A stretch of 64,000 nucleotides of DNA from a virus. Every line of letters begins with the position of its first letter. Positions within the stretch are counted from its first letter, which is position 1. Position numbers and translations under genes: made by a program. The stretch is taken from positions 1-64,000 of IMG/VR virus record IMGVR_UViG_3300005838_000623, one strand, 5' to 3'. Below are positions 1 through 39,148 of this stretch, piece by piece. A model generated the notes under the pieces. That model saw only the letters and a program-made list of their open reading frames with translations. It was not told where the DNA came from and ran no database searches.

Positions 1-1455
1 AACATAGTCTTTACCGTCCTTTAACGTTTTAACTCGCTTGAAGTTACCCATATGACCACCTCGACTCTCAATACCACTACTGTCAACAATAGGTTCACGT
101 CCAAAATTCATCTCAGTAAGTAAATCATCATGATCCCAGTTATAATTCGTTAGTAAATCTGTTACAATCTTCTTATAGTCGTCCGGCAATATGGTTATAT
201 TAAAATGATTTGGCATATGCATTAGGTTCAAGTACCATAGATCAACGTTAATCGAGCGTATCCATTCGAAGATATCGGGTATACTCTTTATGTTCAATAG
301 GCTTATTGTACTGCATATCTCTGTAGTCATGTTAAGAAACTTATTGTCGCATAGGTAATTTATATTATAGTTAACTTCTTCCCACTTAGCACCGTACCGT
401 TGATACTCGAATTTGTCTCCAATATCGTCTATACTGAAGGACATTTTAACCCACTTAAAGTGTGGCCAAATTTCTTCTAATGCGTGTTTAGGCAGCTGTG
501 TACCATTGGTATTATAGTGTAGGTCAATATTTTTAGCATAGCCTTTGTCTATAGCTACCTGCAGGAAGTCAAAATGTTCTTGTATAAGCCATGATTCACC
601 CCCGGTAAACTCTAAATGTACTATATTCGGCAGTAATTCATCTGCTAAGTTGCGCCAAAAAGCATCATTCTCACGTGGCCAATTACCCAATTTTAATCTC
701 TTATACGACATAGTTCGTTTTAAATGTTCTTTTGGCACGTTCTCAAACTCGTATGCTATATCCATCTCATCCTGAGACCATTTAGAACTACTAGCACTAC
801 CGCATATTCGGCACTTCAAATTGCATATAGAGCCTAATTTTAAATCAAGATACTTCATTGAAGAATCAGTTACCTCGTCAATGAATATAGTATTACTAAC
901 GTCGGAATGTTGACAAAAAGTTTCTGCCCAATGTATACGTTTACTCTTTATACCGGCATCTTCTTCATCCCAACATTTTTTACATGAACGTGGCTTTTTA
1001 CCTGCCTTAAAGTCCGATCTCAACTGTTTCATATAGTTGGATTGGAATACTTCAGACAATGTTGAATTATTTAAATGCCATACAGTTGGAATTGTTGCAT
1101 GCATACCATGGTGCCAATAATAATTATTAGGGTGAACTTGAAGTTTCTCTATAGTCAAATCTTCTTGTGTTAATGGCCAGTGTTTTGGGTCGGCAAGCTC
1201 GGCTGGTAATTCATTTGCTGATATTACATTGTCTGGCATTGCCGCAATCTCTTGATCTTCAGGGGATAATTCACTTAGATCCTTAAAGATTGGATTCTCT
1301 GCCATACAGCATTGCTTACATTCTCCTGTTGCACTCGCTTCTAAATGCATGAATGGTAGATAGCATAGTGTAGGTACTGCTTTAAACGCTGGACTCTTTC
1401 TCGTGATAAACTCTATAGAGTCTTTTAAATTATTTTTTGCTGATGATTCGGTCAT
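1..1455 (-). CDS. Radical SAM protein with N-terminal SPASM-like Cys region (3' end outside window)
   Basis: An open frame of 485 codons begins at ATG 1455 and leaves the window at base 1 without a stop, so it is partial only because of the window edge. The radical SAM CxxxCxxC motif reads CNLKCRICG in the middle of the protein and should bind a 4Fe-4S cluster that cleaves S-adenosylmethionine. It is followed downstream by an EFTGGES segment, the usual GGE motif. An N-terminal Cys-rich region (C31, C46, C49, C50, then a later CKKC pair) resembles a SPASM/twitch auxiliary-cluster region placed before the core. GGGGA about 9 nt before ATG supports the start. It is the last visible member of a five-gene paralogous series and has its own sigma70-type promoter at 1587-1615. 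The substrate is unknown; a peptide or sugar target would both fit the neighbourhood. Confidence 0.85.
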   Translation of the reverse strand, partial: MTESSAKNNLKDSIEFITRKSPAFKAVPTLCYLPFMHLEASATGECKQCCMAENPIFKDLSELSPEDQEIAAMPDNVISANELPAELADPKHWPLTQEDLTIEKLQVHPNNYYWHHGMHATIPTVWHLNNSTLSEVFQSNYMKQLRSDFKAGKKPRSCKKCWDEEDAGIKSKRIHWAETFCQHSDVSNTIFIDEVTDSSMKYLDLKLGSICNLKCRICGSASSSKWSQDEMDIAYEFENVPKEHLKRTMSYKRLKLGNWPRENDAFWRNLADELLPNIVHLEFTGGESWLIQEHFDFLQVAIDKGYAKNIDLHYNTNGTQLPKHALEEIWPHFKWVKMSFSIDDIGDKFEYQRYGAKWEEVNYNINYLCDNKFLNMTTEICSTISLLNIKSIPDIFEWIRSINVDLWYLNLMHMPNHFNITILPDDYKKIVTDLLTNYNWDHDDLLTEMNFGREPIVDSSGIESRGGHMGNFKRVKTLKDGKDYV

Positions 1456-1481
1456 ATTAAAGATTTCCCCAGTAAGATCTA

Positions 1482-1553
1482 CTATAGTAAACCACTGTGT
1501 TTATTACTCTGTCGTATACGGTTCGGCATAGTCAACCATTCACTGGAAGCCAT
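1482..1553 (-). CDS. Possible 23-residue leader ORF before the radical SAM gene
   Basis: Inside the roughly 125-nt leader predicted between the sigma70 promoter (1587-1615) and ATG 1455 lies a short frame, ATG 1553 to TAG 1482, preceded closely by AGG. It would encode a 23-residue basic peptide beginning MASSEWLTMP. It could be a leader peptide, a small product or chance. Only its position supports it. Confidence 0.2.
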   Translation of the reverse strand: MASSEWLTMPNRIRQSNKHSGLL

Positions 1554-1586
1554 CCTATAGAGCGGGCTCTGTCGCAACGTTCTTAT

Positions 1587-1615
1587 ATTATAACATTGTA
1601 TAGTCATTATGTCAA
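1587..1615 (-). promoter_or_regulatory. Consensus sigma70 promoter for the leftmost radical SAM gene
   Basis: On the minus strand TTGACA (1615-1610) and TATAAT (1592-1587) are separated by exactly 17 bp, a perfect match to the bacterial sigma70 consensus. The -35 box overlaps the stop region of the upstream radical SAM gene (stop at 1607-1609). Predicted start of transcription is near 1580, giving a leader of about 125 nt. Confidence 0.85.
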
Positions 1616-2851
1616 CCCTTTAAACTCTGGAAAGGTATTACTGAATGATTCGTTACGGATGGAATCCATCTTGGCCGTTAATTTGATAAAGTCTTCTAAC
1701 AATGTAGGTATACTCGGTTGTTGAATAAAGTTTATAGCACTCTTATAACCATTGGTTGCTCTTTGCATTGAGTCGATAGGACTGATATAGTCGATATGTT
1801 TATAATACTTAGCTATAATCGCTTCCTTGTCTATATCTTTAAGATTGTCTATACGGTAGTAGGGTGGATTCATCAGTATGTTAATGTTGAAATCTTGTGC
1901 TTTAATTAAACCCTTATCGATCCACTCACGGTGAAAGTCTGGCATATGATACGAATTCAGTATACTCAACGTGCAACTAATGTAGAAGTCAACGTCTGGG
2001 CATACCCGTAACATCTTCTCACGATTGGACTCTATATCTCCCCATACTGTTTCCTTCCTTATATACTCTCCTCGTATACCCGAACCGTCTAATGAAGCAC
2101 CTATACTAACGGAGTCAAACTCTTTCCACATATCCAGTATACTCAATTGCTTATATTTGAGTTGCGAAAAATTGGTATTGTATATTAACTTAACGTCTGT
2201 TCGACCTTGCTTAATCAACTCCGCAATAATCTCCCAATGTGCGGCCATCATTAGGGGTTCTCCACCAGCGAAATATATCTGTTCTACGTATGGTATATGC
2301 CTTAAACATTCTTCTATATCCAGGTTACACTCAATTACTTTAGTATGATCAGGCTTACTACCGTGTAATGCCTCATAGTCTTGATACCAATTAGAGCTAA
2401 AGAGTGGACCACACGATCGGCAACGGAAGTTACATAGGTTACTAAACCGAACATCCCAGTATACTATCTCGAACGGTGGCTCTATAGAACGCGCCTTACT
2501 AACGTGATGACCGAAATGTTTATTAGCTGATACCCGGCCGCTCATAAAGCCATTCTTATCTTGTTCATAACACTTAGTACACTCTGGTAATGCTATACCG
2601 TTTATCATTTTACGTCTTACGTTTACCATATGGTCACTATGCCAAATCTCCTCTAGGGTATTGTCGTTAAGATTACCTATAGGCATATCCATATCAGACA
2701 TACAGCATAGGTGAACGGTAGAGTCTGGGTATGCGTGAGTATGAATCCACGGTAAGATACAGAACGTAGGGTTCTCCGTTAATACTAATTGTTCGTATCG
2801 TGGAAGGTCTTCTAGGTTAACCTTTACTGGTCGTTTATCGTTATAGTCCAT
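1607..2851 (-). CDS. Radical SAM protein, subfamily A (N-terminal SPASM-like region)
   Basis: This 414-residue protein has the radical SAM motif CNFRCRSC (C140, C144, C147) and the motif FAGGEPLMM. The first 100 residues contain FCILPW (C31), a CC pair (C49/C50), the phrase IGNLNDNTLEEIW and CTKC (C91/C94). This is the pattern of a SPASM auxiliary-cluster domain, normally found after the radical SAM core but here in front of it. It is closely similar over its whole length to the gene at 3753-5066, so the two are tandem paralogues. AAAGGAA lies about 13 nt before ATG. SPASM radical SAM enzymes usually modify peptides or proteins; the target here is unknown. Confidence 0.87.
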   Translation of the reverse strand: MDYNDKRPVKVNLEDLPRYEQLVLTENPTFCILPWIHTHAYPDSTVHLCCMSDMDMPIGNLNDNTLEEIWHSDHMVNVRRKMINGIALPECTKCYEQDKNGFMSGRVSANKHFGHHVSKARSIEPPFEIVYWDVRFSNLCNFRCRSCGPLFSSNWYQDYEALHGSKPDHTKVIECNLDIEECLRHIPYVEQIYFAGGEPLMMAAHWEIIAELIKQGRTDVKLIYNTNFSQLKYKQLSILDMWKEFDSVSIGASLDGSGIRGEYIRKETVWGDIESNREKMLRVCPDVDFYISCTLSILNSYHMPDFHREWIDKGLIKAQDFNINILMNPPYYRIDNLKDIDKEAIIAKYYKHIDYISPIDSMQRATNGYKSAINFIQQPSIPTLLEDFIKLTAKMDSIRNESFSNTFPEFKGLT

Positions 2852-2857
2852 AATTGA

Positions 2858-3094
2858 TTATATTCCTTTCGTTGAATAAAAGTTTATACGTTTAAACAAA
2901 ATAAAAAAGTTTTCAAAAACGTTGGGGCAATGTGACACAGAATAATATTTGGGCATGTTATGGCCCATGCATTTTTTTAGTCGCTCGAAATATTCTGCCC
3001 TATAGGAAAAATTTTTCTCTCGTTCGTGTAACGTAGAATCATCCGTCTCTGCGATCAATTGATATTTGCCAAATTCCTTCCCAACCTCTGCCAT
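2858..3094 (-). CDS. Small protein of unknown function
   Basis: A 78-residue frame rich in charged and aromatic residues, ending six bases before the radical SAM start at 2851. It overlaps the neighbouring 88-residue frame by 56 bases in a different frame, which is more than usual in this genome. Either one of the two has a later start (Met43 is possible here), or the two are one gene split by a frameshift. I recognise no domain or signal peptide. Confidence 0.45.
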   Translation of the reverse strand: MAEVGKEFGKYQLIAETDDSTLHEREKNFSYRAEYFERLKKCMGHNMPKYYSVSHCPNVFENFFILFKRINFYSTKGI

Positions 3095-3305
3095 AACTTA
3101 CTTCATGCCCGGCCGGGTTCCAATCTACAGGATAAAACAGTACCTGTGGAAATGATGGTGCTACTATAAAGGATCCTTCTAACCATTTACCATTTATTCT
3201 AACTAAAAATTTCTCACCCGGGTAATCTACATTCAACGTCATACGCTTTTGACCACTGTTGGATTTCAATAATACATCCAAGTTGATTGGGTACAGTGAT
3301 ATCAT
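3039..3305 (-). CDS. Small protein of unknown function
   Basis: An 88-residue frame with alternating hydrophobic and polar residues typical of a small beta-rich protein (for example KFLVRINGKWLEGSFIVAP). No clear Shine-Dalgarno sequence precedes ATG 3305. It lies in the same direction as the radical SAM genes. If the island makes a modified peptide, this frame and the neighbouring 78-residue frame are the only small non-secreted candidates for a substrate here, but no leader or core peptide features are visible. Function unknown. Confidence 0.5.
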   Translation of the reverse strand: MISLYPINLDVLLKSNSGQKRMTLNVDYPGEKFLVRINGKWLEGSFIVAPSFPQVLFYPVDWNPAGHEVSYGRGWEGIWQISIDRRDG

Positions 3306-3347
3306 GTTTAATTAAAGAATAGCAACATAATAAGTGGCTGAGAATTC

Positions 3348-3674
3348 TCAAAGAAGGGCACCATAAAACAAGGTACGTATAGAATATTGTCTATGATCAT
3401 ACGAGTATTTAGTGTGCTTACTGTTATGTTCATTCATAAATTCACGATACTCGTCAATCTTATTTTCATGCACACATGCAAGTCTAACCATTGCAACTTT
3501 ATTTTCAAATATAGTATTGAAACTTTCCAATACTTGTTGTTGAAATGCTGTATCCACTATTTGTGTTTCACATAAATCATTAGTTTCAAACGTAGTTACT
3601 TCATTAATAGTATACCAGTATTGAGGAAGTCCACTATTAAGGAGTACTACTATCATAGCAATAATATAAGTCAT
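3348..3674 (-). CDS. Small exported protein with two cysteines, unknown function
   Basis: A 108-residue protein whose first 15 or so residues (MTYIIAMIVVLLNSG) form a hydrophobic segment like a signal peptide or membrane anchor. The remainder is polar, with two cysteines (C35 and C67) about 32 residues apart, which could form a disulphide after export. AGGATCGGA just before the start is a plausible ribosome site. The layout (hydrophobic start, WY pair, two spaced Cys) resembles the 116-residue protein at 9277-9627. It sits between two radical SAM genes. Confidence 0.5.
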   Translation of the reverse strand: MTYIIAMIVVLLNSGLPQYWYTINEVTTFETNDLCETQIVDTAFQQQVLESFNTIFENKVAMVRLACVHENKIDEYREFMNEHNSKHTKYSYDHRQYSIRTLFYGALL

Positions 3675-3752
3675 GTTGTTCCGATCCTATATCTGTAGTG
3701 TATAAAATTTTCGCCAGACCAGGTATTCGGCTGGGTGTGACTCGGCGCCGCC

Positions 3753-5066
3753 CTACTCATTGTATAATTGCCCTAGTTCTGGGAATACTTCTAATAAGTT
3801 TTCGTTGCGATGCGTGTCGTATTTGTTTATTTCTTCTTTAAACTTCGGTAGTAAGTCTGTTCTGTCTTCGCTCATCATAAAGTTTATTGCGGCGTCAAAG
3901 CCGTTTGATGCTCGTTGAATATCATCTGTATCCTTAATATTATTTAAATGTTCTGTGTATAGTACTTTTATTTCTTCCTTCATCGTTGTTGGTAGTATAG
4001 TAGTTCTGTAGTAGTCGGGTCCTTGTAATATGTTTACGTGGAAGTCGAACACTTGTATTAATCCTTTATTGACCCAATCATTGTGAAAGTCTGGTAAGTG
4101 ATAAGCGTTTAATACTTGTAGCGTGGCACTTGGGAAGAAGTCTACATCAGGACATACTTGTAGCATTTCGGTTCTGTTGCGTTCTATTGTGTCCCAGTGT
4201 GTTCCTTTCCTGATGTATTCTGCTCGCTTTCCCATTCCGTCTAGAGATGCGCCTATGGAAACGTCTTCGAACTCTTTCCATACATCAAATACTAAGCGAC
4301 CTTTATACTTAACTTCACTAAAATTAGTGTTGTATATTAACTGTGTATCGAACTTCTTTCGTTTAACTAGTTCATCTATTAGTTTCCAATGCTCTTCCAT
4401 CATAAGAGGTTCGCCGCCAGCAAAGTATATCTTGTCCAAGTTATCTATGTATGGTTCTATCATTTCCCAGTTGGTGTGTTTGTTGCCTGTAGTGTATTCT
4501 ATTTTAAACGAAGTACCGCCATACATCTCATTAAGCTCTTTACCCCATACAGAACTAAATTGTGGTCCACACATGCGGCATTTAAAGTTACATTGATTGG
4601 TAAAACGTGTGTCCCAGTATATAATATTAGGCAACGAAGCACCATCATGTAGTGTGCCGTTTATTGTTTCTATAGCGTATGCGAAGTTTCTATTGCTTTC
4701 GTTACGTAATGAGTAGAAGCCATTACGTTCTTTCTCATAACAGTTAACACATTCTTTACACGGGATACCATTGAGCATGTTGTGTCGCATGGTACGATAT
4801 GGCGCATCATTCCATATATCTTCTACTGTGTCGTTACGTAAGTTGCCTACTGGTTCTTCGGAGACAGATATACAACATGGATAAGCTTCTCCAGTAGACG
4901 AACCATGTATGTGTATCCACGGCAGTATACAAAAGTGTTTGCTTTCCGTTAATAAATTATATTGTTTGGGTGTAAAAAATTCTACAGGTAATTGTTGTTT
5001 GTTCTTATCTAACAGTACTGTTTTGGAATCGTAAGGGTTGTCCTTACTTAAAAATCCCTTATCCAT
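3753..5066 (-). CDS. Radical SAM protein, subfamily A (tandem paralogue)
   Basis: This 437-residue protein carries CNFKCRMC (C159, C163, C166) and FAGGEPLMM. Its N-terminal SPASM-like region has C46, the CC pair C64/C65, VGNLRNDTVEDIW and C103/C106/C109. It is the full-length paralogue of 1607-2851; shared blocks include IYNTNFS, VSIGASLDG, AEYIRK or GEYIRK, and CPDVDF. Its start overlaps the end of the next radical SAM gene (5059) by 8 bases and lacks a strong ribosome site, so translation is probably coupled. Expected chemistry is SAM-dependent radical modification with one core and at least one auxiliary Fe-S cluster; substrate unknown. Confidence 0.88.
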   Translation of the reverse strand: MDKGFLSKDNPYDSKTVLLDKNKQQLPVEFFTPKQYNLLTESKHFCILPWIHIHGSSTGEAYPCCISVSEEPVGNLRNDTVEDIWNDAPYRTMRHNMLNGIPCKECVNCYEKERNGFYSLRNESNRNFAYAIETINGTLHDGASLPNIIYWDTRFTNQCNFKCRMCGPQFSSVWGKELNEMYGGTSFKIEYTTGNKHTNWEMIEPYIDNLDKIYFAGGEPLMMEEHWKLIDELVKRKKFDTQLIYNTNFSEVKYKGRLVFDVWKEFEDVSIGASLDGMGKRAEYIRKGTHWDTIERNRTEMLQVCPDVDFFPSATLQVLNAYHLPDFHNDWVNKGLIQVFDFHVNILQGPDYYRTTILPTTMKEEIKVLYTEHLNNIKDTDDIQRASNGFDAAINFMMSEDRTDLLPKFKEEINKYDTHRNENLLEVFPELGQLYNE

Positions 5067-6429
5067 TAGATAGTGTTCCGTACCATCGTTCTAAGTTAGG
5101 AAACGTCTGTATGAGGTTTTTGCCTCTACGTTCATCATATTGTCTATAAAAGTGATAGAAGTCATTCTCTAAAGCAGGTTGTTCAAACGTATCGCTGTGT
5201 GGTTTGTCTACTACATCTAAGTAGTCTATTAAACGGTTTATATGATTCTTTTCCATCTCATGCAAAAGCGGGTTATCAAAATTAAGTATTCGCCACAAAC
5301 TTAGGGTATAACGATAACTCGAGCGCAAGTATTTTGGTAGCACTAACGGTGATTGGAATGATGGAAAGCGTAATATGTTTAGAGTAAACGTTGGAAAATC
5401 CTCTCCGTACTCGCTCTTTAACAGCAGTACAAAGTCCAGGAACTTAGGTAACGAGTCTAAACATAAACTGTTTACAGTACACATCATATGAAAGCCTTCT
5501 AAGTTGCCTTCTTTGCACACACGATGGACGTTATTAACCCAAGTATCCCACTCTAACCCGTCTCTAATATACTCTGCTTGTGCGCCAAATGCTTCACAAG
5601 ATGTGTATAGATGTAAGTGGGGTACGTGTTGTGCGTTTTCTATAAAGCGATCTATTAGATCGTCTTTAGCACCTAAGTTAGAGTTAATAGCGAGCCGCAT
5701 ATCGGACTTCTTATTGGTAGTTCTAAACCAATCAAACAACTTCCATATCTCACCAGCCATCATAGGTTCACCACCAGTAATGCGTAGTTCGTCTAGTGTG
5801 TCGTGTAACTCTAACTCCCACCATTTCCAAAAGGCTTCTACGTATGGGTTAACTTCGTCGTGCTTGTATAACTGTGCTTCGTTGTGTTCGTGTGTAAAAT
5901 GGTTGCGTCCGTCTGACTTTAACTGTGTATACGCACCGTTGTTCTTTACATCTTTAACCCAAGAACTACTAAAGGCGGGATTGCAATAAGAGCAACTAAA
6001 ATTACAAGTCCTATCAAAGGCAATTTCCAATGTACGTAGAGCAAAATTCTCTGTAGGTTCTTCTTGTTTAACATGATATACGTCTTCCTCGTCGTATATA
6101 ACAGACTTATGGACACGATCAGAGATAGCGTCGGGTCCAATGTCTTCTATCTTCCAGCAATACTCACAGCCTGGTGGACGTTCGCCCGCAAGCATTTGTG
6201 TTCTATCCTGCTTCTTTTGCTGTGTGTTGTGTATAGCGGCAGGGTTTGTTGCTAGTTCTTTAATGTCTATCTTATGTGCTGGAGGGTGATGGCAACTAGT
6301 AGTCATACCACTCCCAAGCCATATGGTAGCATTGCGCCATTTAGCCATACAAAAGGATGGACTTACTGTGGTGTTAAGCCATCGCTTAATGTCTAAATCT
6401 GTTTCCCTACCCGGCGTTCTTAGCGTCAT
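5059..6429 (-). CDS. Radical SAM protein, subfamily B (His-containing N-terminal metal-site region)
   Basis: This 456-residue protein has CNFSCSYC (C142, C146, C149) and ITGGEPMM. Its N-terminal region differs from subfamily A: SFCMAKW (C27), then SCHHPPAHK (C46, H47, H48, H52) where subfamily A has CC, then CEYC (C88/C91). The block PPxHK is shared with the gene at 6758-8188, so a site normally all-Cys may have become Cys/His. The start overlaps the SufT-like gene by four bases (ATGA), placing both in one coupled operon. The C-terminal segment FYHFYRQYDERRGKN has a counterpart in the 6758 paralogue. Substrate unknown. Confidence 0.87.
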   Translation of the reverse strand: MTLRTPGRETDLDIKRWLNTTVSPSFCMAKWRNATIWLGSGMTTSCHHPPAHKIDIKELATNPAAIHNTQQKKQDRTQMLAGERPPGCEYCWKIEDIGPDAISDRVHKSVIYDEEDVYHVKQEEPTENFALRTLEIAFDRTCNFSCSYCNPAFSSSWVKDVKNNGAYTQLKSDGRNHFTHEHNEAQLYKHDEVNPYVEAFWKWWELELHDTLDELRITGGEPMMAGEIWKLFDWFRTTNKKSDMRLAINSNLGAKDDLIDRFIENAQHVPHLHLYTSCEAFGAQAEYIRDGLEWDTWVNNVHRVCKEGNLEGFHMMCTVNSLCLDSLPKFLDFVLLLKSEYGEDFPTFTLNILRFPSFQSPLVLPKYLRSSYRYTLSLWRILNFDNPLLHEMEKNHINRLIDYLDVVDKPHSDTFEQPALENDFYHFYRQYDERRGKNLIQTFPNLERWYGTLSNG

Positions 6430-6761
6430 AACATTCCCATTTCTAGTTTAGCATGTTCTGGTATCATCTCTGGCCCCCAAGTTGGGTCAAACGTCATATC
6501 TACTTTAATGTCATTGAGACCACCAACGTCACATGCCTCATTTACTTGTTGATATAACATGTCGCCAACAGGGCAAAACGGTGATGTTAACGTCATTGTT
6601 ACTGTTAAGTTTAAATCCTCAGTAATATCTATGTCATATATTAAACCTAAGTCGTATATATTGATATGTATTTCAGGATCATATATCTGTCGTAAGTTGT
6701 TTACTATTTGATCTACTATAGGATCAATGCCTTCTTCATATGTTGTTGCGTGTGTGTTCAT
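6426..6761 (-). CDS. SufT / MIP18 (DUF59) family Fe-S assembly protein
   Basis: A 111-residue protein with the DUF59 hallmarks in order: YDPEIHINIYDLGLIY near residues 27-42, SPFCPVGDML with the conserved Cys63, and a C-terminal DPTWGPEMIPEHAKLEMGM typical of SufT/PaaD-like proteins. The family helps deliver Fe-S clusters to client proteins. It overlaps the upstream and downstream radical SAM genes by four bases on each side, so it is made with them. The simplest reading is a dedicated assembly factor for these cluster-rich enzymes. Recognition is strong; the client assignment is inference from the operon. Confidence 0.88.
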   Translation of the reverse strand: MNTHATTYEEGIDPIVDQIVNNLRQIYDPEIHINIYDLGLIYDIDITEDLNLTVTMTLTSPFCPVGDMLYQQVNEACDVGGLNDIKVDMTFDPTWGPEMIPEHAKLEMGML

Positions 6762-8188
6762 AATTGTGCTAACCTCTTACATTCTTCCCACCAGTCTATC
6801 ATCTCTGGGAATGTTTCTATAAAGTTAGTGCCACGACGGGTGTCGTGCTCGTTAAAAAAGCGATAAAAGTCTGCTTTACAATTGTTTACATATACTGGAT
6901 CTAACTTACTACCTTCCTGCCACCATGCTAAGTCTCTATGCATACGTTGAATTTCATAATCTTTAAAGCCTTTAAAGCGAGATTTCTCGTCTTCCATGTT
7001 ATCTAACATCCAACATGTGTTCTCTTCGTGTATATCTTGGTATGGTTCAGGCAATAACTGTATGCTTTGCCAAGCAGGCTGTCGTAATAGCGGTGTATCA
7101 AACCATATACGTTGATAAGTTTCACTATATGCTTGTCGCAAACCGTGTATATAGCCTAATAACTTATCCATTCCTGTAATACTTAAATTGTTATATGTTA
7201 TAATAAACGTTAAAGAGTTTCTATACGGAACTTCCGTTAAGTATGTGTTGATATTATCGCACATCTTATTAAAGTCTAACCCATTACGTATATACTCGGC
7301 TTGTTCCAGCCAACTGTCTACACTAACGTATTGCATAAAGTGTTCTACTTTCTCTTCCAAGCATATGCGTTTAACTTTTTCTAAGTATTTGTCAAACAAT
7401 TTGTTGTCTACTGGACTAAAGTTACTTGTAACGTTTAAATGTAAGTCGCTTTTGGGATTGTCTATAATGTAATCAAATACTTTATGTGTATTTTTATCCA
7501 TCATAGGCTCACCACCAGTCATACGGAAATGCTTTAAGTCTTTATATAAGTCAGGCCACCACTCCCAAAACGCTTCTACATAAGGATTATACTTGCTGTG
7601 TGGTATGCAAGGGTTAATCTCAAAGTGTTCAGGTGCGTTATGTGGTTTAGATGTAGGCCAGGCACCGTGTTGTTTCATTTCTTTATCCCACGCAGTACTA
7701 AATTGCGGACTGCAATAACTACATTTTAAGTTACAGTTGTGGTTAAAGTTTACTTCTACATAACGCGGGTTCTTATCAGCATCCCAAGGAGCATTAACTA
7801 CTTCGTCAAAGTCCATTGCGGCCCACGGCTCACCACTTCTGTAATGCCTATCACTCATATGCCCAGTATCTTCTATGTTCCAACAGTACTGACACTCGCT
7901 AGGACGTACACCTTCTAGCATAAGTTTACGCATTTCTTTCTTATGTTGGGTGTTGTGTAGAGCAGACGGTGTGCCTAACTCCATTTTATGTAGTGGTGGG
8001 TGGTAACAACTGTTGTTTAATCCAGTTGGTAAATGTAAACTAACTTGGTTCCACTTTGCAAGACAAAAGGATGGTGATACAGAGTCTAACTGTACTTTAA
8101 TATCCTCGGCACTTCTATAGAAATCTGACTTAAACTTACCATCCTTAACTTCTATTTTGTCGCCCTTATTGTCTTTAAAAAGTTCCAT
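6758..8188 (-). CDS. Radical SAM protein, subfamily B
   Basis: This 476-residue protein has CNLKCSYC (C152, C156, C159) and MTGGEPMM. Its N-terminal region reads SFCLAKW (C42), SCYHPPLHK (C61, H63, H67) and CQYC (C99/C102), matching the paralogue at 5059-6429. A long C-terminal region rich in Trp and acidic residues ends with FYRFFNEHDTRRGTNF, a motif also present in the paralogue. It begins the coupled series 6758, 6426, 5059, 3753. The upstream small basic gene overlaps it or ends three bases before it, depending on reading frame (see 8152-8358). Confidence 0.87.
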   Translation of the reverse strand: MELFKDNKGDKIEVKDGKFKSDFYRSAEDIKVQLDSVSPSFCLAKWNQVSLHLPTGLNNSCYHPPLHKMELGTPSALHNTQHKKEMRKLMLEGVRPSECQYCWNIEDTGHMSDRHYRSGEPWAAMDFDEVVNAPWDADKNPRYVEVNFNHNCNLKCSYCSPQFSTAWDKEMKQHGAWPTSKPHNAPEHFEINPCIPHSKYNPYVEAFWEWWPDLYKDLKHFRMTGGEPMMDKNTHKVFDYIIDNPKSDLHLNVTSNFSPVDNKLFDKYLEKVKRICLEEKVEHFMQYVSVDSWLEQAEYIRNGLDFNKMCDNINTYLTEVPYRNSLTFIITYNNLSITGMDKLLGYIHGLRQAYSETYQRIWFDTPLLRQPAWQSIQLLPEPYQDIHEENTCWMLDNMEDEKSRFKGFKDYEIQRMHRDLAWWQEGSKLDPVYVNNCKADFYRFFNEHDTRRGTNFIETFPEMIDWWEECKRLAQL

Positions 8189-8358
8189 AGTTTACTTAGG
8201 CTTTTTCTTTTTCTTTGTTTTATCTTTACCTGGTTTGTCTCTACTTTTACTTTCCATCCTTGCCTCCCTTTTTTTCTAGTTGTATCAGTAGGTCCAAACT
8301 CTCCCATGCTTTTACCATGTAGTTTAGTTCTACTAAAGTTATAAAGGTCATGATTCAT
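8152..8358 (-). CDS. Small basic protein, possibly with a -1 frameshifted C-terminus
   Basis: A 68-residue, lysine-rich frame starting at ATG 8358, directly at the end of the glycosyltransferase-like gene, and running 37 bases into the next gene. A run of seven A residues (8275-8269, minus strand) is in the phase A AAA AAA, a known type of slippery heptamer. A -1 shift there would give an equally basic tail ending in KDKTKKKKKPK at stop 8192-8194, only three bases before ATG 8188, a more normal spacing. The shift could be programmed or an assembly error. Function unknown. Confidence 0.55.
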   Translation of the reverse strand: MNHDLYNFSRTKLHGKSMGEFGPTDTTRKKGRQGWKVKVETNQVKIKQRKRKSLSKLWNFLKTIRATK

Positions 8359-9284
8359 TACCAGCCTTCAATGCCGCGTATTACATCTAATTCTTGTATC
8401 ATTATATCATAGTTTGTGTGCTTGCTGTAATGTGTTTTAAAGAACTTACTTGCTTCAGCATCCATTTCGCATATAGGCATACCTAATTTGTTCTGTAATA
8501 TTTCTCCTATACGCTCTGCTTCATCCCATGGGTTTTGCATTTCGTATTCTCCATGATATATCTCATTGAGGTATGTAAAGTCTCTTACATTAATGTAATC
8601 CCAATCGGTAAGCATAGTTAAATATGTGCCTAACCGTGCGCCGTATATACTCCATATGCCGTGCTCAACATCGCGTCCTACAGTTTGCCATATACATAAG
8701 TTATCTAAGTTACGAGCGTGTATTTGTTGTTCAAATGTTTTTAAATCAGGTTTAGTTCCTTTGTTTAAAACCATCTTAACACCTTCTCTAAACCCAGCAC
8801 GCCATGCGTGTAATGCTGAACCATTTGGGTATGTTGTGCTATAGCAGTTATGCATTGGTCTGTAGTTGTCGTCAAAACAAAACTCTACTAATGTTTCATC
8901 AGAACCATCAGTGTTCTCATGTGTAGTCATGTTTAAAACAAAGTCCACAGGCCAACAACTTAACCCACCATTACCATACATTAGTCCGTTTATAATATTA
9001 CGACCCTTCCATCTAAACACACAATGTTTAGTAACATCATCCAATGTTAATTGTAAGTTAAAAAACTCTGGGTCGGGTAAGTTATCACCGTCTATTAAAA
9101 CAAATCGTCCTGAGGGAGAAGCTCTAGCCGCGGCCTTGTGTGCGGCATCTGATCCTTCTATACCATCAATGTGTATTGCCCATGGCACCATGTTTAGTAT
9201 CTTGGCCCAAAACTCATCCTTTTGTGGCTCATCGTATGTTAAGTATATGCAATCTAAGTCAGCAATGTCAACTATTTCAGTCAT
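8358..9284 (-). CDS. GT-A-type glycosyltransferase-like protein
   Basis: I place the start at ATG 9284, seven codons inside the longest frame, because GGAAGGA sits just upstream. That gives 308 residues. The N-terminal half has the layout of nucleotide-sugar transferases: CIYLTYDEP, then GRFVLIDGDNLPDPEFF with a DxD-type motif (D66 and D68), the usual metal and sugar-nucleotide site. Two other glycosyltransferase-like genes lie just upstream in the same direction, so the island probably alters a glycan or glycosylates a protein. The sugar and acceptor cannot be told from sequence. Confidence 0.6.
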   Translation of the reverse strand: MTEIVDIADLDCIYLTYDEPQKDEFWAKILNMVPWAIHIDGIEGSDAAHKAAARASPSGRFVLIDGDNLPDPEFFNLQLTLDDVTKHCVFRWKGRNIINGLMYGNGGLSCWPVDFVLNMTTHENTDGSDETLVEFCFDDNYRPMHNCYSTTYPNGSALHAWRAGFREGVKMVLNKGTKPDLKTFEQQIHARNLDNLCIWQTVGRDVEHGIWSIYGARLGTYLTMLTDWDYINVRDFTYLNEIYHGEYEMQNPWDEAERIGEILQNKLGMPICEMDAEASKFFKTHYSKHTNYDIMIQELDVIRGIEGW

Positions 9285-9627
9285 ATTCCTTCCTAAACAT
9301 ATCAAGACATATTCGATAGTTAATACATTTTACTAAGTGGTGGTGTCCGTTTGGATAAAATGAATTTGGCCGTGCCGCCAGGCCTGGCCATGACCGTCTT
9401 TGTTCGGATGTTCTCGCAAGTAATTCTTTTCTACATATAGCATCCATACGTAAATTAGGATTAAAGTTCTGGAATATACGATGTGTAGTCATTATATCTT
9501 GCGCCGCACCCCGACACTCTCCTTCCGAATGCATTCGTATTTGATACCAAACATCATTCTCACCTTGGTAATGTCCACTAAATGGACCTACACTCAACAT
9601 TATCATTAATAACCATGGTTCCCACAT
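9277..9627 (-). CDS. Small exported protein with two cysteines, unknown function
   Basis: A 116-residue protein with a hydrophobic N-terminus (PWLLMIMLSVGPFSG) like a signal peptide. It contains WYQI, then C38 and C65. AAGGAAATAAC precedes the start. It overlaps the glycosyltransferase-like start by eight bases. The arrangement resembles the 108-residue exported protein at 3348-3674, suggesting distant paralogues, though identity is low. Not recognised otherwise. Confidence 0.55.
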   Translation of the reverse strand: MWEPWLLMIMLSVGPFSGHYQGENDVWYQIRMHSEGECRGAAQDIMTTHRIFQNFNPNLRMDAICRKELLARTSEQRRSWPGLAARPNSFYPNGHHHLVKCINYRICLDMFRKEYD

Positions 9628-9637
9628 TGTTATTTCC

Positions 9638-9898
9638 TTAAGGGTAAATTACTCCAAACTTATCAGAGTCTTTAGTATTAAACTCCTTTTCAAATTTGTT
9701 TGCTTCTGCCCTTCGTTTGAACATTACTTTCACACCAGCGGCGTAGACAGTGTTATCTACTATATATTCATTTTCACAGTTTTTTTCACACCAAGTTTTT
9801 ACACTTCTGTAAATGCCAACTGCTTTTTTAAACTCGTTGTTTTCTATAATTTCCCCTGTGTCAGCTTCCCATGGGAATGTTGCATGTTTTGTTATCAT
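9638..9898 (-). CDS. Hypothetical protein (86 aa)
   Basis: An 86-residue soluble protein preceded by a good ribosome site (AGGAG). Its ATGA start overlaps the stop of the gene at 9895, so translation is coupled. Two close cysteines (WCEKNCENEY) and the phrase MFKRRAEANKFEKEF are visible, the latter reminiscent of small phage proteins that read host or viral amino-acid strings, but I cannot assign a family. Confidence 0.6.
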   Translation of the reverse strand: MITKHATFPWEADTGEIIENNEFKKAVGIYRSVKTWCEKNCENEYIVDNTVYAAGVKVMFKRRAEANKFEKEFNTKDSDKFGVIYP

Positions 9899-10308
9899 TT
9901 TTTCTCCTGTTGTAATTGATAATAATTTTCATCTTTATTGAATTTTACTTTATCAGCAGTAATAATTTCTTTAATAATCCTATGATCCTTGTCTGTAACA
10001 TATACGGGTAAATCTGGATCTAATTCTGTTGCGTGTGTTACTTTAGTATATTTTCTTAAACGGTTATATACGTCATGTTTAATTGGTTCTAACTTACCAT
10101 TAATTATTACCCAATCAGTAATGTGATTAGTGTCTAACCATTTAGAAGGGACTTTAATATGAAGACGGAACTCATCTACATATATGGATGCTTCATATAT
10201 AATGCCGTTATCATGATAATATAAGCAGTAATCTACTTTAGCAACTTCTAATTCTTCCTGTGATTCAATTGCTTCTATTAAATCATCTATTCCTTTAATC
10301 GTGCTCAT
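9895..10308 (-). CDS. Hypothetical protein (137 aa)
   Basis: A 137-residue protein with an acidic N-terminal helix (DDLIEAIESQEELEVAK), then alternating strands (YCLYYHDNGIIYEASIYVDE) and a mixed C-terminal half. It overlaps the glycosyltransferase-like gene upstream by 14 bases and the next gene by four, so it belongs to the same operon. No domain is recognised. Confidence 0.6.
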   Translation of the reverse strand: MSTIKGIDDLIEAIESQEELEVAKVDYCLYYHDNGIIYEASIYVDEFRLHIKVPSKWLDTNHITDWVIINGKLEPIKHDVYNRLRKYTKVTHATELDPDLPVYVTDKDHRIIKEIITADKVKFNKDENYYQLQQEKK

Positions 10309-11158
10309 AGTATTCTATTGTTTTATCTGCTAGGTACTCTTTACACTCTGCACCATGTACTGGATATATTTGCGGCTCTACGCCTAATATTAAACCAACG
10401 TCATCACTATACTCTATATTAATAATATCTTCTATCTCATGTTGCTCTGGCCAACCCAGTATGTTGTTTTTCATATGCACAAATGTTGGGTAGTCTAACA
10501 CATTATTTGTATGTGTATATTCTGCTTCTTGTAACACTAATGCTATTGCTAACGCAACATCAGTAGTAGGCTTTTCATCTCTACAATTTTTTAAACATTC
10601 AGATACTTCATCCCAATTTTTATAAACCCATTTAAGTGCTCTAAACAGTTTTAAACTTTCTTCTCCATAACGGAAGTACATAAACCCACTATAAGTGTTA
10701 GGTAAGTTGTTGATATCAAAGAGTTTTCTGTACTTGCGTGAGTTAGATATAGAACCGTCTAGTTTACGAACATTGGTCGCAATCATTACTTCCTGCTCAC
10801 GCATAAACGTCCACCAATGATCTATATTGCGTGTAAACACAATATCACAATCTAACTTAACTGTCTCTTTAAATGGTGTTATTGACCATGCTTTCCATTC
10901 ATTGCCTAACTTCCATGAGTCATCCTCACTATCATCGCCCCACGGAATGTCTACTACATAGTCAAATACTTTGTAATGCTTTTCTGTTAATTGTTCTTTA
11001 GTTGGTTTATCTACAGCGATGGCAAACTTGTTTATAGTTTGTGTTGCTTTTAGACTTAATCCACAGGCGTATGCTAGTTTTAAATAGTCAGTATCGTTGT
11101 TATTTTGAACAAATGTGAAGTACCCAATTTGTTCATTATGTTCCTTGATTCTTTTCAT
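10295..11158 (-). CDS. GT-A-type glycosyltransferase-like protein
   Basis: This 287-residue protein has the segment ITPFKETVKLDCDIVFTRN, with a DxD motif (D103, D105) preceded by a hydrophobic strand as in GT8-like enzymes. After it come an acceptor-domain-like region (PNTYSGFMYFRYG) and a late EKPTTDVALAIAL segment. The next gene upstream has the same layout (TPYEKTLLLDVDYLMF), so the two are paralogues. They overlap by 23 bases. Expected role is transfer of a sugar from a nucleotide donor; the acceptor is unknown. Confidence 0.62.
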   Translation of the reverse strand: MKRIKEHNEQIGYFTFVQNNNDTDYLKLAYACGLSLKATQTINKFAIAVDKPTKEQLTEKHYKVFDYVVDIPWGDDSEDDSWKLGNEWKAWSITPFKETVKLDCDIVFTRNIDHWWTFMREQEVMIATNVRKLDGSISNSRKYRKLFDINNLPNTYSGFMYFRYGEESLKLFRALKWVYKNWDEVSECLKNCRDEKPTTDVALAIALVLQEAEYTHTNNVLDYPTFVHMKNNILGWPEQHEIEDIINIEYSDDVGLILGVEPQIYPVHGAECKEYLADKTIEYYEHD

Positions 11159-12014
11159 ATGTCACATGCGTTTTTTGATTTGATATAACAGGTTGAAACA
11201 CATAATCTAATATCTCTTTAGCACAATTTATTATACTATGCTTGTTCATAATATGAATATTAGTATTTGTTATATAAGATACTTCTATTTTATTTTTATT
11301 TTCATATTCATATATTACACTAGTATCTGGTTTTACTCTAGTTAATGTGCTTTCTGAAGGGAGAGTAAACAAAGGACTCTGAAAATAACTATTACAGTTT
11401 AATAAATTATATGCAATACTTATAGCATAGTCATTTCTGTATGGGCCACTTCTGAAATTATATAAATTGTAATAATATTGATAGTTATCTCGTACTAACT
11501 TAACAAGATTAAAAAACTCCTTTGCTGTATTATTTTTAGTAAAATATAATACAGTTGCCCATAACATTGGAGTACTACTCCAGTGTAATAGTTTGTCATC
11601 TATAAAACTGTTTTTACCTGTAATGTCATAAACATTATTATGGCATATTAATTCTTGATCAGATTCAAATAGCCATTGCAACGAGTTATTAAACATAAGA
11701 TAATCTACGTCTAATAGTAATGTTTTTTCGTATGGGGTTAAATCATATGCGTGTGGGCGAGTTTTATTGTGCCAAGTAACTTCTTCTGTCTTACCATTAG
11801 GAATTCTAAAAGTGCGGTGGCCACTATCACCTGCCTCAACTATGATAACATCATCAAAAGGATGTCCTTCATCTATATTTTTATCAGTGACTAGGGTTAC
11901 ACCACAATGTGGTAAATGTTTTTTAACTAATAATGTACAGAGCTTAGCTAGTTCTGTATATTTTATTGATTCATTATTGTATGCAAACAATAATATGCCA
12001 TTTTCTGTGGCCAT
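11136..12014 (-). CDS. GT-A-type glycosyltransferase-like protein (paralogue)
   Basis: This 292-residue protein has LTPYEKTLLLDVDYLMFNN (DxD at D102/D104), then STPMLWATVLYF and a YRNDYAISIAYNLL segment matching the neighbouring paralogue. The C-terminal part is AT-rich and Asn/Lys-rich. Its start lies immediately beside the 116-residue gene at 12016, so both would be read from the promoter at 12374-12402. Substrate not known. Confidence 0.62.
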   Translation of the reverse strand: MATENGILLFAYNNESIKYTELAKLCTLLVKKHLPHCGVTLVTDKNIDEGHPFDDVIIVEAGDSGHRTFRIPNGKTEEVTWHNKTRPHAYDLTPYEKTLLLDVDYLMFNNSLQWLFESDQELICHNNVYDITGKNSFIDDKLLHWSSTPMLWATVLYFTKNNTAKEFFNLVKLVRDNYQYYYNLYNFRSGPYRNDYAISIAYNLLNCNSYFQSPLFTLPSESTLTRVKPDTSVIYEYENKNKIEVSYITNTNIHIMNKHSIINCAKEILDYVFQPVISNQKTHVTYEKNQGT

Positions 12015-12015
12015 C

Positions 12016-12366
12016 TTATAGCTGCTCGGGCTTTCGTATTCCCCTAATCTTGTTCATTTGTACCATATATTCGTTATTAACTTCATAATATCGTTGCCAT
12101 AATTTTTCACAAAATTCTTGTGAGTTTTCTATTAATATAGGATTATCATATGAATCTAATATTATTGTGGGATTTGCTTTTAAATCTGCTGATTGTGCTA
12201 TTTGTTGGCGTAACGAAAGCATTTCAGCAAATGTAATTAATTCTCTGGTTACTTTAAATAAACCGCTGTTATAGGGGAGGGATAATAAACCTAGAGTGGC
12301 TTCACGCATTGTTGCGTGGGCCACTTTTTGGTTAAACTTCTTTTTAACTGTATCTTTTACACTCAT
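12016..12366 (-). CDS. Hypothetical protein, first gene of the accessory operon
   Basis: A mostly helical 116-residue protein (TMREATLGLLSLP, ITFAEMLSLRQQIAQSADLKANP). It is the first gene after a perfect sigma70 promoter whose -10 box ends only seven bases before ATG, and no Shine-Dalgarno sequence is present, so its mRNA should be leaderless or nearly so. It heads the minus-strand series of glycosyltransferase and radical SAM genes. No family recognised. Confidence 0.65.
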   Translation of the reverse strand: MSVKDTVKKKFNQKVAHATMREATLGLLSLPYNSGLFKVTRELITFAEMLSLRQQIAQSADLKANPTIILDSYDNPILIENSQEFCEKLWQRYYEVNNEYMVQMNKIRGIRKPEQL

Positions 12367-12373
12367 ATATAAT

Positions 12374-12402
12374 ATTATACATGAATTCTTTCATTATGTC
12401 AA
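12374..12402 (-). promoter_or_regulatory. Consensus sigma70 promoter, leaderless configuration
   Basis: Minus-strand TTGACA (12402-12397), 17 bp, TATAAT (12379-12374), then exactly 7 nt to ATG 12366. The predicted transcription start falls within about one base of the initiation codon. It lies between the late structural block and the accessory island and would drive the whole island early. Confidence 0.87.
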
Positions 12403-15829: not shown

Positions 15830-18800
15830 TTATATTACCTTGGGAGTTGATAGCGGTGCCTCTTTAAGGAACGTTACTTGTTTGGATGTTGCCATACCTA
15901 GTCCTAAACTGTTTGTGGCAGTTGATCCGCCTTGATCATACCAAACTTTAGTATGAACATCTGTGCCTGGTATTAATTGTTGTTTACTGCCATCTACTAC
16001 TTCACTTGCTGTAGCATGTGTAGCATGAGCACCTGTGCCCCATGTGCCACGACGTATTCTTTTTAGTTTGTTACCATCTATTTCCCAATATTCTATACGC
16101 TCGCCATTAATGAATATTACACCTGGCGTTGCTGTTGTTGGAACAGGCGTCAATAATTTAGTTGCGTCTGTTACGTTAATTTCTATATCTGTTAAAGCCA
16201 ATGCTGTAGACAATGTTGTTGTGTTTGCTGTTGCAATTCTATAGTAAGATGTTTTGTCAAACATATCCTTCCAAATTCTAAAAGCAATGCCATCTCGTTG
16301 TTCTGCTTTACGCATGCCGGTTACAGTAATCATATCTGTTGCTAATATACTACCAGCTGCTGGAGTCATTACTAAATTAGTACCAGTTATATAATAATCA
16401 TGGTTTGCAATTTGTGGTATGCCATTTAACCATACCCATACATAGTTTATATTTCTTTCTAATACCGATATATCATAAACTGGTGTTGAAATTGATACAC
16501 TAACATCACCTGCATATCCACTAGTATCAAAAATTATTGTATCAAATCTTTCTAAATGTAATAATGTTGCAACTGATGTGCCTTTTATTACAAGTGTTTT
16601 GCCTTTACTGTATCTTTGATTAGAGAATGATTGTACAAATAATTTGTCACCAGTAGTTATTGTTCCAGCAGTAACAGATACACCACTACCATTTTCAAGT
16701 ATAACTTGGTAATCATTTTGGATCCAATATTGACCATTTCTAATCGTAATTCCTATTTCTGCGCCTGTTGCAGGAATATTACCAACAGTAAATGTTATTT
16801 GGTCACGTGCAGGTGATCCACCAGTAAATGTATAATGTGTTGTAAGTGTTTGCAATACACCATCTACATGTACTTGAACATCAGCATCAGTTACTGATCC
16901 ATATGCAATAGTTGGATTAGCTGGACCATCATATACCGCTAATACTCCGTTACCTGTATAGTATTCTGTATCTGGTGGATTTAATCGTGTGTTGTTCAAA
17001 TATACAAATGCTTTTGCGGCATCAGGGCCAAATTCAAAGAAGTTATCCTGGCCATATGTATATGTGTAACTTGCAGGCCATGTTGGACTACCAGGAACTG
17101 TAATTGTTTGTTCTTCACTTTCAACTTTAACAAATGGTCTAATTGCTTCTATTTTGCCATCTGTTACAATAGCAGTTGCGGTTGCTGTGCCTGTAATTGC
17201 AACAGTTGGTGCTGATGTATATCCAGTACCTGCGTTTGTTACAATTAATCCACTTACCTTGCCTTCAGCATTAATAACTGCTGTAGCCGCCGCGTTAGCG
17301 CCGCCACCCCCACTAAATGTTACTGTTGGCGCTGATGTGTAGCCACTACCTGCATTTGTAATTGTTAATCCTGACTTATTAAATGTATGCACTCGTATAC
17401 GATCGTTATTTCCTGGTGCTGAAGCAAATGTTATTTTTGTTTTCTTATAATAACTTGATGCTGTCCATGTCGGAGCGTTTTCTATACCATTTACAGTTAT
17501 GTACAAGTATTGTGCATATTCATATGGTACATTCACAATAAACTGTGTTGTTGAAGTATCACCAATAAAGTCTTGTTTGGTTGATGTAACCGTATCACCA
17601 CCTGTTTCAATTAATACAAAATGTATTAATTGTCCTGCTGGTACAGGAGATACCATTGTTATAATATTCGTCTCCATATCAATAGTATAATTTGTTGTTA
17701 ATTTTTGTAATATTCTATCAATATATATTCCAACACCGGTAACATTTGTGGGTAATTTACCTTTAGAACTAAAATCATAAATTACAGCAGATCCATTACC
17801 TTCAAATGTATACTTTTTAATAGTAACACCAGTGTCTCGTGGTGATGGCATTTCGTATACTTTGATATCTAATGTATCAAATACACGACCAGGTACTTGT
17901 TCTTCTGGTGCGTGTGATGTATATTCTGTTACAAAACCATCACCATCTACAGCAACATTGGCAGGATCAATACCACCACTTGTACTAAAATCACCACCAC
18001 TTAGGTCAGTATCTACGCTTGATATAATTTTTACACCTTCTGGACTTATTTCAAAATCATCAAATTTTGATGAGGCATATGTTGCCCTGTCATAGCCAGG
18101 CTCCATATCAAATGTGGCACCAACTACCTTATTTGCTTTATATTGTAATCCAGAATCTGCTATAACAGCATCATATGTTGGAATGTTTGCTGTTTTATTA
18201 TCCCAGGTTTTTGTACTGCCGGTGCCTGTTTGTCCACCAGAGTAAAATAGTGTTAAGCGATCACTATGCTTTTTAGCGGCCGCTTCATGTGCTGTTTCCA
18301 ACTTATTGTAGGATGAGTATGAAACTGTTGCTGTTGCCGCGGCACTAGTACCACCGCCACCACTAAATGCTACGGTTGGTGCGGCAGTATATCCTGTGCC
18401 TTCTTGTTCTACGACAACTGCTGTTACTGCTCCACCGGAAATAACTGCTTTGGCACTTGCTCCACCACCTGTTGTATCTCCTGCGGCATTTGTTATTGTT
18501 ATCGTAGGTGCTGAGGTGTATCCACTGCCTCCAGCAGTTACGGCAATAGTTGTAACGTGTGATGGTGAATCAACACGATCAAACTTAATTGTTTCTTTAA
18601 TATCTCTTACTTTATAATTTTCTAAATTAACATAACCAGTTGCTCCACTACCACTACCACCTGAGATAATTACCTTCGGGGTAGTTACATATCCGGTACC
18701 AGCTGATGTTACGGTAATAGAATCTACCGTATCTAATCCAGGTGTTTTCATTACAGGAATAGCTGTAGCACCACTACCATCTCTGTGTGTGCCATCTTCT

Positions 18801-38845: not shown

Positions 38846-39148
38846 TTAAATCTCCAAAGAATTTGTTAAGGTTGCTTGTTGTGGGAGATATATAGTTACG
38901 CCTGTTATAAAATCAAATACAGGATCTTTTAATACATCTGGATTACGCACAGCAAAAACCCACCATAAACCTGATTTACCATATAAATCATATGCTAATA
39001 AATCTGGTCTATTATTATACACAGGATCTATTTCATATATTAAGTCATCTTGCTCGGCATTAAAAGATCGCTTAGCCATTAATCCTAATTTATTGTTATT
39101 TCTAGGAGTAGTATAATATGGACTTGTTGAAGAATATTCACCAGCCAT
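38846..39148 (-). CDS. gp53: Baseplate wedge protein gp53
   Basis: A 100-residue protein carrying YDLYGKSGLWWVFAVRNPDVLKDPVFDFITGVTIYLP, the LysM-like signature of gp53 and related tail proteins (YG...LWW..A..N....DP..D...G..I.IP). In T4 gp53 locks adjacent wedges together around the hub. Its start overlaps the stop of gp48 by one base and it ends one base before the hub gene. Confidence 0.85.
   Translation of the reverse strand: MAGEYSSTSPYYTTPRNNNKLGLMAKRSFNAEQDDLIYEIDPVYNNRPDLLAYDLYGKSGLWWVFAVRNPDVLKDPVFDFITGVTIYLPQQATLTNSLEI

Follow-up and report, generated by a model that had tools for sequence, protein, structure and literature searches.

The T4-like marine genome TARA_ERS488813_N000010 carries 12 radical S-adenosylmethionine (SAM) genes together with an A-type carrier gene and paaD, which is of the DUF59 type, and the accessible part of its description interprets these genes as iron–sulphur (Fe–S) metabolism in general (Nishimura et al. 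2017, PMC5332604). In pelagimyophages, radical SAM cassettes and GT8 glycosyltransferases share a variable host recognition island within the structural region with the tail fibres (Zaragoza-Solas et al. 2020, PMC7029224). DUF59 proteins such as S. aureus SufT are Fe–S maturation factors under high demand (PMC4982691). Here we analysed positions 1 to 64,000 of the IMG/VR virus record IMGVR_UViG_3300005838_000623 (the window), for which an earlier note had described five paralogous radical SAM genes with an embedded SufT-like gene. As first stated this finding was largely anticipated, because the two phage papers precede it, the first as judged from its accessible part. That part of PMC5332604 makes no mention of a fixed-order array, of a link to glycosyltransferases or of a promoter. 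Likewise, the literature examined, some of it accessible in part, gives no account of the fixed-order five-class unit set out below, of its linkage to glycosyltransferases or of its promoter, and it yielded no relevant paper on radical SAM genes with a carbamoyltransferase in phages.

The five proteins are all encoded on the minus strand and each contains a CxxxCxxC motif (CNLKCRIC, CNFRCRSC, CNFKCRMC, CNFSCSYC and CNLKCSYC) and a GGE motif, as the earlier note had reported. All five scored well above the 170-bit cut-off of NF033640 (N_Twi_rSAM), a single NCBI family, at 295–386 bits with most or all of the profile covered. We refer to these N-twitch radical SAM proteins as R5 (6758..8188, 307 bits), R4 (5059..6429, 315 bits), R3 (3753..5066, 386 bits), R2 (1607..2851, 375 bits) and R1 (1..1455, 295 bits; its 3′ end lies outside the window). 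Matches to PF13186 (SPASM) are N-terminal, at residues 31–95 of R2 and 46–109 of R3. The 4–8 base overlaps claimed for four neighbouring genes were also found: R5 and the DUF59 gene share 4 nt, the DUF59 gene and R4 another 4 nt, and R4 and R3 8 nt. A gap of ∼900 bp holding small open reading frames (ORFs) separates R3 from R2, and 151 bp separate R2 from R1. With the diverged homologous locus L012 as the comparison, omega came to 0.07 for R5, 0.17 for R4, 0.10 for R3 and 0.12 for R2. R2–R5 are under strong purifying selection, which bears out the suggestion of a maintained multi-enzyme set; the DUF59 gene had an omega of 0.34. Elsewhere in the same record, among its tail genes, two more radical-SAM-like proteins with CxxxCxxC or similar motifs are encoded (L015:5282-8028); their matches to NF033640 are weak and one has a glycine-rich insert.

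The window is part of a 92,695-base virus record, and the window's edge cuts through a larger array. From end to end this record matches part of a 322,647-base contig (G002) at 99.998% identity, which makes the virus a jumbo phage; genes of T4 type for baseplate, sheath, terminase and late sigma factor are present. Past the edge the array runs on through the complete R1 (595 aa in locus L010), a divergent 417-aa member and a further protein, R0b (435 aa), and the contig contains 16 NF033640 matches in all. Therefore, although the window does hold five such enzymes, the count of five is a product of where it ends.

Two radical SAM queries found at least 539 and at least 548 relatives in viral contigs. 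We fetched and compared 160 related viral loci, of which 93 are complete arrays with all five classes, and counted partner genes in 111 arrays. This sample is not free of bias, because it consists of the relatives that scored best against the window's own proteins and includes some near-copies of one contig. Most of the 160 hold five or six radical SAM genes within ∼20 kb. A tree of 718 proteins separated the radical SAM proteins into orthologous classes, with R5 (129 sequences, support 0.98), R4, R2 and R1 as the first to fourth conserved classes, and placed R3 in a clade of only five members. The order R5-R4-R2-R1-R0b was found in 89 of the 93 complete arrays, a single strand carries the array genes in 93 of 93, and 245 of 384 junctions overlap. 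Because median within-class identity is only 46–63% (R2 pairs 51%, R1 pairs 46%), this order must have been long preserved. In the window R2 and R3 share 45% identity, R4 and R5 35%, and the remaining pairs 22–26%; R3 falls in a small clade, is nearest to R2 and is a local, lineage-specific duplicate of it. The classes, their order and the R3 clade together indicate a conserved five-class unit plus a duplicate rather than five random paralogues, and the ancestral unit comprises the five orthologous classes in that order. Across the 93 arrays, conservation of the twitch cysteines and of the three radical SAM cysteines is at least 99% in each class. A relative's homologous array carries inserts, namely a methyltransferase gene (L012:11675-12379) and an extra radical SAM gene (L012:8937-10004).

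What had been one NCBI family is thus resolved here into five orthologous classes within a fixed-order operon that includes glycosyltransferases. In pelagimyophages the radical SAM cassettes differ between two genomes (PMC7029224), whereas in the present, larger virus the radical SAM genes belong to an ordered unit that is deeply conserved. The family also appears largely viral: among the ∼85,000 cellular species genomes of GTDB, R4 relatives occurred in nine contigs only, all from metagenome-assembled genomes, against at least 548 viral matches. Those nine contigs may be binned phage contigs. Among cultured phages no close relatives were found, only Vibrio phages K566/K567 with remote homologues of ∼22–24% identity; these have three clustered radical SAM genes and one more on the opposite strand, and their 25-kb stretch gave no matches to the glycosyltransferase, small-protein or DUF59 profiles.

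The array does not stand alone. In relatives the head of the unit consists of a 116-aa gene, two or three GT-A-type glycosyltransferase genes and a small conserved protein gene, and the window, again on the minus strand, has the same set. The apparent first gene encodes the 116-aa protein (family c4, 12016..12366; in 92 of 111 arrays), for which Pfam gave no significant match. It is followed by two related glycosyltransferase-like genes, c2 (11136..12014; 101 arrays), which cross-matches c1 in BLAST, and the GT8-like, glycogenin-like c1 (10295..11158; 102 arrays). The c1 profile matched glycogenin-1 over positions 4–109 (E 6.6e-6), and no Pfam family matched c1 at a significant score. Next come a 137-aa protein without a Pfam match (9895..10308), a possible carrier or substrate, and the glycosyltransferase-like c0 (8358..9305; 105 arrays), for which a GT-A fold is likely. 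The family of the 137-aa protein, defined by a profile of 90–145-aa proteins built from three clusters, one of which includes the window's gene, is present in 92 arrays. Weak GT2 Pfam matches were obtained for 7 of 22 c0 relatives, and the AlphaFold2 (AF2) model of c0 (predicted local distance difference test, pLDDT, 90.5) had mostly glycosyltransferases and sugar nucleotidyltransferases among its top 50 Foldseek matches (best E 1.7e-3).

Farther upstream, a tail-fibre-like protein (75 of 111 arrays) and a 304-aa protein (92) recur, and downstream of the arrays a 379-aa family (81), a carbamoyltransferase (75) and two sets of SGNH-like proteins (34 and 29). In the 322,647-base contig R0b is followed by inserted metabolic genes, a glutamine synthetase and purC/purE-like ORFs read by eye, past which lie the 379-aa family, SGNH-like proteins and carbamoyltransferase. 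The same insertion is seen at L035:14752-15807, where a glutamine synthetase and then two ORFs resembling purC and purE stand between R0b and the remaining cluster. Two large genes were also recorded. One, at window 15830-30373 on the minus strand, encodes a 4,847-aa virion protein with similarity to several of the structural families in PHROG; the other, in the contig (G002:164551-168165), encodes a 1,204-aa protein that BLAST matched many times to the c0 family.

A perfect sigma-70 promoter-like site, TTGACA-17-TATAAT (12/12), lies at the head of the unit between the 304-aa and 116-aa genes (12374..12402, minus strand). In 86 relatives the site before the 116-aa gene matched at 11/12 or better in 31% and at 10/12 or better in 55%, compared with 0% and 5%, respectively, in shuffled controls; other gene families tested reached 11/12 in at most 5%. 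The 17-bp spacers are only 24% identical among relatives, so the hexamers have been retained while the surrounding bases drift. The whole contig contains 18 perfect sites, against 0–2 in three Markov controls. Taken together, these observations suggest that the genes form a separate transcription unit read early by host sigma-70 polymerase, apart from the tail genes. A second perfect site on the same strand, 132 nt before R1 (1587..1615, 12/12), is not conserved in relatives. Many near-perfect sites in G002 end just 7–8 bases 5′ of an ATG (for example 23051-23079, 39059-39087, 110953-110981, 139375-139403, 201488-201516, 211140-211168, 247796-247824 and 287423-287451), and the one that precedes the 116-aa gene in relatives likewise often ends 5–7 bases short of the start codon. 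Promoters so close to the ATG would give leaderless transcripts, if the assigned starts are right.

In our reading, to which we give roughly even credence, the window carries its own copy of an operon that is conserved among aquatic T4-like phages (myoviruses) and largely specific to viruses, and that serves early glycan tailoring, with DUF59 as an optional Fe–S aid. Host RNA polymerase would transcribe the unit early from its own sigma-70 promoter, the glycosyltransferases would build glycan units, and the radical SAM enzymes would oxidize, dehydrate, epimerize or link these units, one step per class. The target would be a host-surface glycan, changing receptors or excluding competing phages, or possibly a glycan that is later placed on the virion. 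In some lineages DUF59 would assist Fe–S maturation of the array enzymes.

Several observations weigh against this interpretation. Both the glycan substrate and the product are putative; the c0 model's Foldseek matches are modest (best E about 2e-3); and R5 resembles SkfB and SuiB, which mature ribosomally synthesized and post-translationally modified peptides (RiPPs), as closely as it resembles sugar enzymes. A sigma-70 consensus is no proof of early expression, and 45% of relatives lack a promoter match of 10/12 or better. Some of the synteny may stem from common descent within a single tail-region lineage. Among array-bearing viruses, those with DUF59 have no excess of radical SAM genes (median 6 versus 7 without DUF59). 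Finally, tail and tail-fibre-like genes stand directly upstream of the unit, a position that would fit modification of the virion.

That last point leads to the chief rival, in which the array is a peptide- or protein-modifying set that tailors virion proteins (tail fibres or the small protein) and the glycosyltransferases glycosylate the same tail proteins. The unit comes immediately after the genes for the baseplate, the giant virion protein and the tail-fibre-like proteins, with which it shares its strand, and the small protein family is widespread among the arrays. The AF2 model of R5 (pLDDT 90.2) had viperin, SkfB, anSME and SuiB as its top Foldseek matches, with a probability of 1.00 for viperin, anSME, NifB and MoaA alike. 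The modelled R5 fold is a radical SAM core near the SPASM enzymes and close to RiPP maturases and anSME, and the c0 fold is near the peptide S-glycosyltransferase SunS. Profile searches of the PDB with R5 and with the downstream 379-aa family returned nothing useful. A weak profile match aligned the N-terminal cysteine region of R2 with the C-terminal region of BtrN, which is its auxiliary-cluster domain. In BtrN and other twitch/SPASM sugar enzymes, however, this domain follows the radical SAM core, whereas in the array proteins it precedes it, and the similarity is marginal. Against virion or peptide modification stand the unit's own sigma-70-type promoter in many relatives, the lack of any peptide seen to bear a repeated substrate motif, and carbamoyltransferase and sugar-enzyme partners that are better suited to glycans. 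Among the targets that the earlier note had proposed were a virion protein and a small peptide; we found no positive evidence for either, the conserved partners being glycosyltransferases and sugar-tailoring enzymes, and we consider this rival rather unlikely.

Instead, the enzymes could produce or modify a small metabolite or a nucleotide, for instance a viperin-like inhibitor of competing replication or a modified nucleotide, in which case the glycosyltransferases would have no connection with them. R5 has viperin as its closest structural match, and the viperin model NF038283 gave weak matches in all five proteins. These matches reached at most 32.5 bits against an equivalog cut-off of 180, so membership of that family fails. 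Moreover, the array proteins have an N-terminal twitch cluster, which viperin to our knowledge lacks, and their linkage to glycosyltransferases is constant. A metabolite or nucleotide product is accordingly an improbable explanation.

A third proposal, the strong form of the earlier note, makes DUF59 a dedicated maturation factor that the enzyme set functionally requires. The 111-aa protein (6426..6761, minus strand) matches PF01883 (DUF59, FeS_assembly_P) at 55.3 bits, well above the gathering cut-off of 23.5 bits, and its stop and start codons overlap R5 and R4. Because it reaches neither the SUF model TIGR02945 (113.5 against 143.4 bits) nor SufT TIGR03406 (93.2 against 202.6 bits), 'SufT-like' is a fair label and 'SufT' is not. 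DPE, TLT and Cys63 are invariant among viral DUF59 relatives; the window gene thus resembles S. aureus SufT in its PF01883 domain, invariant cysteine and DPE motif (PMC4982691), and differs in falling below the SufT and SUF cut-offs and in lying within a radical SAM operon, where its Fe–S role is a prediction.

Of the 16 viral records that have DUF59 and span 25 kb or more, 12 encode an above-cut-off NF033640 protein, compared with 0 of 33 random viral records of that size. The latter were drawn by a 15-base pattern, a 16-base pattern having yielded small contigs only. The associated p-value of 2e-8 overstates independence, since several of the DUF59 records are closely related to one another and the random sample was drawn without habitat matching. 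DUF59 genes apart from these radical SAM genes, which the earlier note had named as evidence against its proposal, turned up in small fragments only, such as L013, a 7.6-kb contig that has DUF59 but none of these radical SAM genes. In the converse census, which covered 43 array-bearing records no shorter than 100 kb, only six have DUF59, each within ∼10 kb of the array, and the 37 without it include two with 15 and 16 radical SAM matches. The statistical link is therefore one-way, from DUF59 to the radical SAM genes and not the reverse, and the census rules out DUF59 as a constant array partner. In a tree with weak support the array-linked DUF59 proteins are spread over several branches, and they take differing positions around the array, which suggests repeated recruitment. 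An A-type carrier (PF01521) is not the usual substitute, being present in only 10 of 44 array-bearing records. As both are uncommon, most array phages must rely on the host for Fe–S help. The present virus and TARA_ERS488813_N000010 are both T4-like and radical-SAM-rich with a DUF59-type gene, but the accessible account of the latter lists an A-type carrier and no PF01521 protein was found in the 322-kb contig. We infer that DUF59 is an optional Fe–S maturation aid acquired by some lineages, with a putative role in cluster loading, and hold a strict requirement for it to be very doubtful. Of the earlier interpretation overall, the conserved set and the linked, phage-borne DUF59 gene are supported, while the necessity of DUF59 and the virion or peptide targets are not.

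That the genes are a loose set of accessories without a joint pathway, as the hypervariability of host recognition islands (PMC7029224) and the gain and loss of extra radical SAM, methyltransferase and metabolic genes might imply, is highly improbable given a fixed five-class order held across 93 loci at such low within-class identity and under strong purifying selection.

Radical SAM genes of marine phages are often listed singly as auxiliary metabolic genes. Seen as five classes in one ordered unit with glycosyltransferases and a host-type promoter, they become a single testable pathway, of which the census shows the DUF59 gene not to be a required part. More tentatively, and as a possibility that we hold with clearly less confidence than the glycan-tailoring reading itself, five successive, nearly virus-only radical SAM enzymes and viral glycosyltransferases would build a new modified host-surface glycan early in infection, and superinfection exclusion or receptor editing by this means would be common in aquatic T4-like phages. 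If such editing of surface sugars proves true, it would bring unusual chemistry into the phage–host and phage–phage competition of aquatic phages.

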